From NCBI GenBank assembly GCA_020073705.1, contig JAIQES010000018.1:1-64000 (forward strand): a DNA stretch of 64,000 nucleotides, written 5' to 3'. This document shows positions 58,045 to 63,328 of the stretch, in pieces. Position 1 is the first letter of the stretch, and each line of letters begins with the position of its first letter. The position numbers and the translations under genes are program-made. Source of the DNA: Terriglobia bacterium (GTDB taxonomy: Bacteria > Acidobacteriota > Terriglobia > Acidiferrales > UBA7541). Under the pieces are notes generated by a model. It worked only from the letters and a program-made list of their open reading frames with translations, had not been told where the DNA came from and did no database searches.

Positions 58045-58515
58045 ATGGCAGCACCAGCGAAAGTTCTCGCGAAGGACATGACACAACAGACCGCCACCGA
58101 GCTTCAGACGGTTCTGGTGGATTTAATTGATCTCAGTTTGCAGGGCAAACAGGCACACTGGAACGTTGTAGGACCGCAGTTCCGCACGCTGCACCTCGAA
58201 CTCGACGAGGTGGTCGAGGACGCACGTAAGTGGGCGGACGATGTTGCCGAGCGGCTGCGGGCGCTGGGCGTCGCTGCCGATGGCCGTGCCAACGTAATCG
58301 CCAAGCGCACGGGGCTCGAATCACTGCCCGAAGGGACCATTGCAGACAATGAAGTGCTCCTCCGCGTCACCGACCAGCTGTCCACAGCCGCCGCGCGCGG
58401 CCGGACTAGCATTGGCCGTCTCGACAGCACCGACAAAATCAGTGAAGACATCCTGATCGAAATCGTCGAGGGGCTAGAGAAGCACCTCTGGATGTTCTGT
58501 TCCCAGCGGATGTAG
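58045..58515 (+). CDS. dps: Dps-type DNA-protection ferritin
   Basis: 156 residues; GGAGG precedes the ATG. LSLQGKQAHWNVVGPQFRTLHLELDEVVEDARKWADDVAERLRALG holds the inter-subunit ferroxidase ligands (H, D, E) in the standard Dps spacing. Dps oxidises and stores iron with peroxide and shields DNA in stationary phase. Array I sits 51 bp upstream. Confidence 0.94.
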   Translation: MAAPAKVLAKDMTQQTATELQTVLVDLIDLSLQGKQAHWNVVGPQFRTLHLELDEVVEDARKWADDVAERLRALGVAADGRANVIAKRTGLESLPEGTIADNEVLLRVTDQLSTAAARGRTSIGRLDSTDKISEDILIEIVEGLEKHLWMFCSQRM

Positions 58516-58559
58516 GTGTGTCCCATATCCTGTTGAAAAGTGAATAGCGCATTTTCCGT

Positions 58560-59086
58560 GTGAAGTCATGAAATACTTTTTTTGAGCAGCAGCTTTTTCT
58601 TTGCCTCTGACGTCGCGATAGCCTTTGATTCTCCGCATCTTCATCTGGCCACTGACCCACAGTCCGAAAAACACTCGTAGCACGACCCCTCGTTGGGCAG
58701 CGTGGCCTGGGTTGCATTCGGCGGCGGAACTCCAGTTGCATTCGCTCGATCGCGTTGGTGGTGCGCAGCGACGCCCACTGGCTTTCCGGAAACCGGCAGA
58801 ACGTCAGCAGGTTCTCACCCGATTTCTCCTGACTCGCCGCCACGACCGGACACTGCTTCTTCCACTTCCATAAAAACGCTTCGCGTGCTTTCCCCGCCGC
58901 ATCCAGCGTCTCGACGTAGACGATACGGTGGTAGCCCTCGCGCACCGCTTCGTGCACGTGCTTCGGCGCTTTCGCCATCAGGTTACGCAGCTTGTGCACC
59001 GTGCAGCGTTGGTGCAGCAAGCCGGGCCACAGCCGGTCCAGCGGCACGACGGGTGAGGATGTGATTCCCGGAATGGCAAACAGCAA
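58560..59086 (-). pseudogene. IS256-type transposase remnant
   Basis: RCTVHKLRNLMAKAPKHVHE, YVETLDAAGKAREAFLWKWK, ENLLTFCRFPESQWASLRTT and NAIERMQLEFRRR are the C-terminal half of IS256/mutator transposases. A frameshift near 58690 moves the remaining GLWVSGQMKMRRIKGYRD to another frame. The N-terminal half is absent. Borders are approximate. Confidence 0.8.
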
Positions 59087-61887: not shown

Positions 61888-61964
61888 TGGTGCGCCCGGA
61901 GAGATTCGAACTCCCGACCTACTGGTTCGTAGCCAGTCGCTCTATCCAGCTGAGCTACGGGCGC
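61888..61964 (-). tRNA. tRNA-Arg(ACG), CCA encoded
   Basis: 77 bases including CCA. Acceptor GCGCCCG/CGGGCGC, discriminator A, anticodon loop CTACGAA giving ACG (read as inosine, CGN codons), T arm GGGAGTTCGAATCTCTC-like. Confidence 0.97.
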
Positions 61965-62042: not shown

Positions 62043-63062
62043 TTACCGTCCCGCCGCAGCCACCGCCATAGCACTCTGGAGTGTCTGCATCATCGCCGCG
62101 AACCCCGGCAAATCGAGCGACTGCGGGCCGTCCGACAACGCTCGCTCCGGACACGGATGGACCTCGATGATGAGGCCGTCCGCGCCAATCGCGACCGCTG
62201 CGCACGACGCGGCAGGAACCAGGCTTCGCCGGCCGGTTGCGTGTGATGGGTCCACAACGATGGGCAAATGGCAAAGCTCCTTCGCCAGCGCAACTCCCAC
62301 CAAATCCAGCGTGTTCCGCAATTCTGAGTCAAACGTCTTGATCCCTCGCTCGCACAAAACCACGTTGGGATTGCCGCCTGAAAGCAAATACTCGGCAGCC
62401 AGCAGCCATTCCTTAATCGTGGCCGAAGGGCCGCGCTTGAGAAGAACCGGCCGGGGGACAGTGGCCAGCCGGCGAAGAAGCGGGTAGTTCTGCATGTTGC
62501 GAGCCCCAACTTGCATCATGTCCGCATATTCCACCACCGCATCGAGGTCTTCGATGCCCATGACTTCCGTCACGATGGGAAGCCCGGTTTCTTCGCTCGC
62601 TTCTTTCAGGATCTTGAGTCCCTCGAGGCCAAGGCCCTGGAAGTCATAGGGCGAGGTCCGCGGCTTGTATGCGCCGCCTCGAAGAATCGTGGCTCCCGCT
62701 GCTTTGACCGCGCGCGCTGTCTCCATCAATTGTTCTCGCGACTCGACCGAACACGGCCCGGCCATCACGACCAATTCCGGCCCGCCGATCCGCACGTCCT
62801 TCACGTTTACTATCGTGCGCTGCGTCTGTAACTGCAGGCTAACCAAGGTAAAGGGTTGTGAGATCGAAATAAGATCCTCTACACCTGGCGCCACCCGCAG
62901 GGCTTCCAGTTCGTTCCGGCGCCCGCGGTTTTTGCCCACTACGCCGATCACGGTACGCTCCGCGCCTTTTATCAGATGGGGCAGAAAACCGCATTCCTTG
63001 ATACGCTCCATGACATGGTCGATCTGCTCTTGAGTCGCCGTCGACGACATATTGACGATCAT
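62043..63062 (-). CDS. aroF: 3-deoxy-7-phosphoheptulonate synthase (DAHP synthase, type I-beta)
   Basis: 339 residues; AAAGGAG precedes the ATG. An N-terminal ferredoxin-like regulatory part (about 1-85, [20 protein letters not shown]) precedes the barrel: [67 protein letters not shown] and [13 protein letters not shown] (metal and PEP/E4P residues). It makes the first shikimate-pathway step. Regulated at two levels: the N-domain suggests allostery, and the leader (63099-63328) shows attenuation by aromatic amino acids. Confidence 0.94.
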
Positions 63063-63098
63063 TGTTAAATCTCCTTTTGCAATCTTTCCACAAGGGCG

Positions 63099-63133
63099 AA
63101 AAAAAAGCCGCGAACCCTGTGGGAACTCGCGGC
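63099..63133 (-). terminator. Attenuator terminator in the aroF leader
   Basis: On the minus strand GCCGCGA and TCGCGGC form a 7-bp stem followed by eight T. It ends about 25 bases before the aroF ribosome site, so it would stop transcription before the gene unless prevented. Confidence 0.9.
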
Positions 63134-63172
63134 CAGTATCGGGAATCTTTTCGCGCTATTTAGCTTTTCGCC

Positions 63173-63265
63173 CTACCTCGAATCACGCGCGATCCGCCCC
63201 TGGCCGCTTCCCACCCATGGGAAGCGGTACGTAAAAGCGAACCAATAATAGTAGCGCGTTTGCAT
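63173..63265 (-). CDS. aroF leader peptide (30 residues, aromatic-rich)
   Basis: ATG 63265 to TAG 63173-63175. Residues 4-17 read RYYYWFAFTYRFPW: four Tyr, three Phe and two Trp among 14. The rest (VGSGQGRIARDSR) is Gly/Arg-rich. Start is 28 bases after the predicted transcription start. A strong hairpin (63204-63227) overlaps codons 13-21, and the terminator follows 40 bases after the stop. Ribosome stalling at the aromatic codons would free the leader RNA to avoid the terminator. Ribosome site weak. Confidence 0.85.
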   Translation of the reverse strand: MQTRYYYWFAFTYRFPWVGSGQGRIARDSR

Positions 63266-63299
63266 AATCGAGCTAATGATCTTCCAGCTAACTTTACCT

Positions 63300-63328
63300 A
63301 AAATACGCAAGAAATGCCCTGATGTCAA
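63300..63328 (-). promoter_or_regulatory. Sigma-70 promoter of the aroF leader
   Basis: On the minus strand TTGACA (63328-63323), a 17-bp spacer and TATTTT (63305-63300). Transcription should begin near 63293, just ahead of the leader peptide. Confidence 0.8.

Follow-up and report, generated by a model that had tools for sequence, protein, structure and literature searches.

A putative ribosome-mediated attenuator with an aromatic leader peptide before aroF, and related elements before other aromatic-synthesis genes, in Acidobacteriota

The pheL-pheA and trpL-trp leaders of Escherichia coli are the classical attenuators of aromatic amino acid synthesis (described in part in PMC11802643). For DAHP synthase, the closest described system is aroR-aroF of Corynebacterium glutamicum with its Phe-Tyr-Phe leader (Neshat et al. 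2014, via PMC11802643; PMC4046766), in which limitation of Phe and not of Tyr is reported to lead to ribosome stalling and to more aroF transcription. Attenuation of a DAHP synthase gene outside Enterobacteria, which the preliminary description of the present locus had pointed out, is thus not new, being preceded by the C. glutamicum system (PMC4046766, PMC11802643). In Acidobacteriota, a dominant soil phylum, amino acid control is almost undescribed, and a 2010 survey held almost no predicted attenuator of the phylum with an associated function (PMC2965389). We found no report of such attenuators in Acidobacteriota in a search that covered few subscription papers; an earlier mention may stand in the wide-ranging survey by Lopatovskaya et al. 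(2010).

Here we analyze the region upstream of aroF in a 64,000-nt stretch of a Terriglobia genome (the window), whose closest relative with a name is Candidatus Acidiferrum typicum (Acidobacteriota). We assign a probability of about 0.9 to the reading that a trp/pheA-type, ribosome-mediated transcription attenuator controls this aroF gene. The leader, the terminator, the mutually exclusive pairings, their conservation and the target genes are seen in the sequence itself.

The aroF leader and its conservation

The promoter, the 30-codon leader, the hairpin, the terminator and the aroF ribosome site were all found where the preliminary description had put them (Table 1). Its nine aromatic residues also stand (Y5, Y6, Y7, W8, F9, F11, Y13, F15 and W17), in a span of 13 residues instead of the 14 given there. 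When the 300 nt ahead of aroF were dinucleotide-shuffled 5000 times, an ORF with an equally dense aromatic cluster appeared twice, and the fold of the 199-nt aroF leader has a z-score of -2.5. The start site probably lies near 63293, downstream of the promoter, which is kept as TTGACA-17-TATTCT in one relative (L005). The aroF product scores 477 bits against PRK08673 (cut-off 335) and 384 bits against TIGR01361. A tRNA gene (61891-61964) adjoins aroF downstream on the same strand; farther along, a minus-strand ORF (58439-59086) resembles, by eye, a transposase fragment (TNAIERMQLEFRRR), and a Dps-like ORF (58045-58515) adjoins it.

Table 1 Features of the aroF leader region in the window.
Feature	Position	Strand	Details	Basis
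Sigma-70-like promoter	63300..63328	minus	TTGACA (63328-63323), 17-nt spacer, TATTTT (63305-63300)	consensus scan, 10/12 matches
Leader peptide ORF	63173..63265	minus	MQTRYYYWFAFTYRFPWVGSGQGRIARDSR + stop, 30 codons, ATG at 63265	translation
Predicted control codons 11-15	63221..63235	minus	Phe Thr Tyr Arg Phe	fold model; function inferred
Protector hairpin (1:2)	63204..63227	minus	10 bp, CCGCTTCCCA-TGGG-TGGGAAGCGG	fold, -17.7 kcal/mol
Region 2, antiterminator arm	63200..63214	minus	GTGGGAAGCGGCCAG, protector 3' arm extended	complementary to 63136-63119
Region 3, second antiterminator arm	63119..63136	minus	includes terminator 5' arm	complementarity to region 2, duplex test
Intrinsic terminator (3:4) and T run	63099..63134	minus	stem 63134-63106	12 pairs, -17.4 kcal/mol, conserved
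aroF ribosome-binding site	63071..63075	minus	AGGAG	sequence
aroF	62043..63062	minus	type I-beta DAHP synthase, 339 aa, ATG at 63062	NCBIfam PRK08673, TIGR01361

The 3' half of the aromatic codon run is also the start of the protector hairpin. In the predicted folds, the pairings 1:2, 2:3 and 3:4 are mutually exclusive, as in a classical attenuator. The duplex between the window leader and region 3 has a z-score of -3.2, and none of 100 shuffles was as stable. This specific duplex test replaced a cruder measure of antitermination, which took the pairing of the terminator 5' arm with upstream RNA, before transcription of the 3' arm, and was dropped because shuffled leaders score equally well on it. 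The consensus terminator scan by itself is not above chance (4 found against 2.7 expected), and the case therefore rests on the arrangement of the elements and its conservation.

The preliminary description had proposed a check of related aroF leaders for conserved aromatic codons, and aromatic runs followed by a terminator indeed stand before aroF at about 70 other Terriglobia loci, which are most of the aroF loci examined. The loci taken from the contig set and from the genome collection partly overlap; identical upstream sequences were counted once in the density-shuffle test and in the survey of the relatives' leaders and terminators. Across 71 aroF leaders (the window and 70 relatives), aromatic codons make up 36% of the leader reading frame over codons 2-19, against 6-10% in the two remaining sense frames and 3-4% in antisense. 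In every one of the 71, the duplex of leader and region 3 exceeds the shuffled mean in stability (median z of -2.5), and in 52 at most 5 of 100 shuffles are as stable.

Two terminator types were identified, class A (GCCGCGA/TCGCGGC, the window type) and class B (CCCACTC/GAGTGGG), and region 2 is complementary to the terminator in both. The protector helix is paired in 96.7% of cells across nine relatives, with changes on both sides in two pairs; both-sided changes are also found in helices 2:3 and 3:4 of class B, the covariation counts being small throughout (2-3 pairs per helix). The class B protector can extend from a Tyr codon into the stop codon (TACCGCTTCTGGGGC...GCCCCGAAGCGGTAG). A strong Shine-Dalgarno sequence is absent from the window leader ORF, and an SD-like 4-mer occurs in 7 of 61 class A leaders. 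At most class B loci (L099, L101-L105, L109 and L112), a -10 box resembling TATACT/TATAGT is found 14-15 nt ahead of the leader ATG, a distance at which the leader mRNAs may be leaderless.

Target genes of the attenuator family

Covariance models for class A (R1) and class B (R2) were run on 299 Terriglobia genomes. Among the matches listed, full-length ones were found in 87 genomes for R1 and 91 for R2, four of them shared, or about 174 of the 299. Within Terriglobia, 67 class A matches have readable downstream sequence, and the next recognized gene is aroF in 10, a chorismate mutase gene (often followed by pheA) in 21, a shikimate kinase gene in 13 and trpB in 23, with no other target (0 of 67). 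These genes were named by NCBIfam, the shikimate kinase and chorismate mutase assignments being clear best matches below the strict equivalog cut-offs. Since R1 was trained solely on aroF leaders, the other three targets are independent finds. The window locus is thus one of a larger family: as predicted from sequence, related attenuators in Acidobacteriota, chiefly in the class Terriglobia, precede aroF, chorismate mutase/pheA, shikimate kinase and trpB.

In the window genome, R1 has a single match, the window aroF site, and the regions ahead of trpE, pheA and a second DAHP synthase gene showed no further aromatic attenuator. This second gene (L002, G000:C44:17402-18388) lies between trpA-like and tyrA-like ORFs, with no aromatic leader or terminator upstream. 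Outside Terriglobia, a few model matches stand before pheA or chorismate mutase. It would be unsafe to call the element absent in other classes: L021/L229, where aroF has no leader directly before it, carries one elsewhere on that contig, ahead of chorismate mutase and pheA, and two loci of another lineage (L228 and L230) carry MFVDDRSRFYFYFYFPPS before pheA. At these two loci, from another class of the phylum, the leader reads MFVDDRSRFYFYFYFPPSRGRGSMRAD, the terminator is a different one (AGCCCCGAA..TTCGGGGCT), and a distant aroF relative lies downstream.

The codon content of the leaders differs with the target. At least one Trp codon is present in all 23 trpB leaders, all 12 shikimate kinase leaders and 57 of 70 aroF leaders, against 4 of 23 leaders of chorismate mutase/pheA; the difference between trpB and chorismate mutase leaders has p = 4e-9 with relatedness ignored. 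Trp codons are also missing in four chorismate mutase leaders (L120, L121, L141 and L143) of f11, a genome family that also supplies trpB and shikimate kinase leaders. As far as leader sequences indicate, Trp codons are kept where the target gene serves Trp, and this change between targets amounts to a natural experiment in which the effect of leader codons on specificity can be followed. We lean slightly towards the view that one ancestral attenuator cassette was duplicated within Acidobacteriota to all four kinds of target, which would have produced a whole-pathway regulon without a regulatory protein, its codon mix retuned in each branch. In over half of the Terriglobia genomes sampled, one recognizable element ties four steps of aromatic synthesis together, and the two covariance models could serve to annotate many missed small ORFs.

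Proposed control and alternative explanations

The attenuator reading extends to the start site, leader translation, stalling, termination and the amino acids sensed, all of which we infer. Transcription would begin near 63293, and a ribosome would translate the leader peptide. Under a shortage of charged Phe or Tyr tRNA, it would stall at codons 11-15 and disrupt the protector, leaving region 2 free to pair with region 3, so that no terminator forms and aroF is transcribed. When aromatic amino acids are plentiful, the ribosome would pass, the protector would re-form or region 2 would be covered, and the terminator would then end transcription near 63099. The classical pheA/trp leader logic that had been proposed for aroF is supported by the conserved aromatic runs and terminators and by the alternative pairings.

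The codons involved were predicted with an equilibrium stall model, in which the ribosome was set at every codon and the free RNA was folded. For the window, the terminator forms without a ribosome (P of 0.94) and is lost solely for stalls at about codons 11-15, whichever front-edge distance between 11 and 17 nt is chosen. The six closest sequences share these five codons without change; codons 5-7 vary, partly synonymously (TAT/TAC). A response of the window copy to Phe/Tyr is a supported prediction, as the model gives antitermination only for stalls at codons 11-15, with Phe11, Tyr13 and Phe15. Trp8 and Trp17 fall outside this stretch, and the joint response to Tyr, Phe and Trp that was first suggested is not supported by the model for the window copy. 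Among 73 relatives, the equilibrium model gives a clear antitermination stretch of this kind in only 33.

The conserved core also invites another explanation, in which the peptide acts as a nascent-chain sensor: F-x-Y-R-[F/Y]-W would arrest the ribosome on a free aromatic amino acid or another ligand, as in TnaC, and this arrest, not tRNA shortage, would set the hairpins. The core F-[TSG]-Y-R-[FY], followed by a Trp, is found repeatedly at distant loci and targets, in an order beyond what tRNA sensing needs. We consider this unlikely, as the core codons also form the protector arm, a second role that accounts for their conservation. Phe and Tyr are swapped within the core and the other arm matches the swap (CGCTTC/GAAGCG in L001, CGCTAC/GTAGCG in L056), and the presence of Trp tracks the target gene. 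L004 furthermore has a changed C-terminal frame with the hairpin kept, although many loci are metagenome-assembled, so that single frame differences such as this one may be errors.

Control at another level is still less probable. Leader peptides can act by other routes, and termination is here predicted from sequence, so the leader might control aroF translation or mRNA stability, or work via Rho in place of intrinsic termination. Against this, about 70 loci have kept a strong terminator followed by a T run, and region 2 matches the terminator in each of the two sequence types. In the window, 24 nt separate the terminator end from AGGAG, so the terminator leaves the aroF ribosome site uncovered. 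Finally, a third alternative can be set aside in both its forms. T-boxes, among other leaders, control aromatic genes in other phyla, but against a T-box or a metabolite riboswitch, Rfam covariance models, including amino acid leaders, T-box and riboswitches, matched only a tRNA with its antisense look-alike within the window and nothing at six other loci. An ORF that arose by chance next to an ordinary terminator would fit a single terminator-like site, which is within chance, but is excluded by the frame-specific aromatic conservation.

Compared with known systems, the window element on the attenuator reading follows the logic of E. coli pheL-pheA and trpL-trp, with which it shares the scheme of leader codons, protector, antiterminator and terminator. 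The E. coli leaders serve one amino acid and one operon each, whereas the Acidobacteriota element has mixed aromatic codons and four kinds of target. The trp attenuators of Corynebacterium and Streptomyces likewise have a control-codon leader and complementary triples common to antiterminator and terminator, but their leaders are UGG-specific and no aro target is described for them (PMC1262725). C. glutamicum aroR-aroF, compared by its description, also has a leader peptide with aromatic codons immediately ahead of its DAHP synthase gene; it belongs to another phylum and has three aromatic codons against nine in the window, and the consulted sections describe no common element ahead of shikimate kinase, chorismate mutase or trpB (PMC11802643, PMC4046766). 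In conclusion, the proposed mechanism is known from trp/pheA attenuators, of which the Acidobacteriota members would form a new family.
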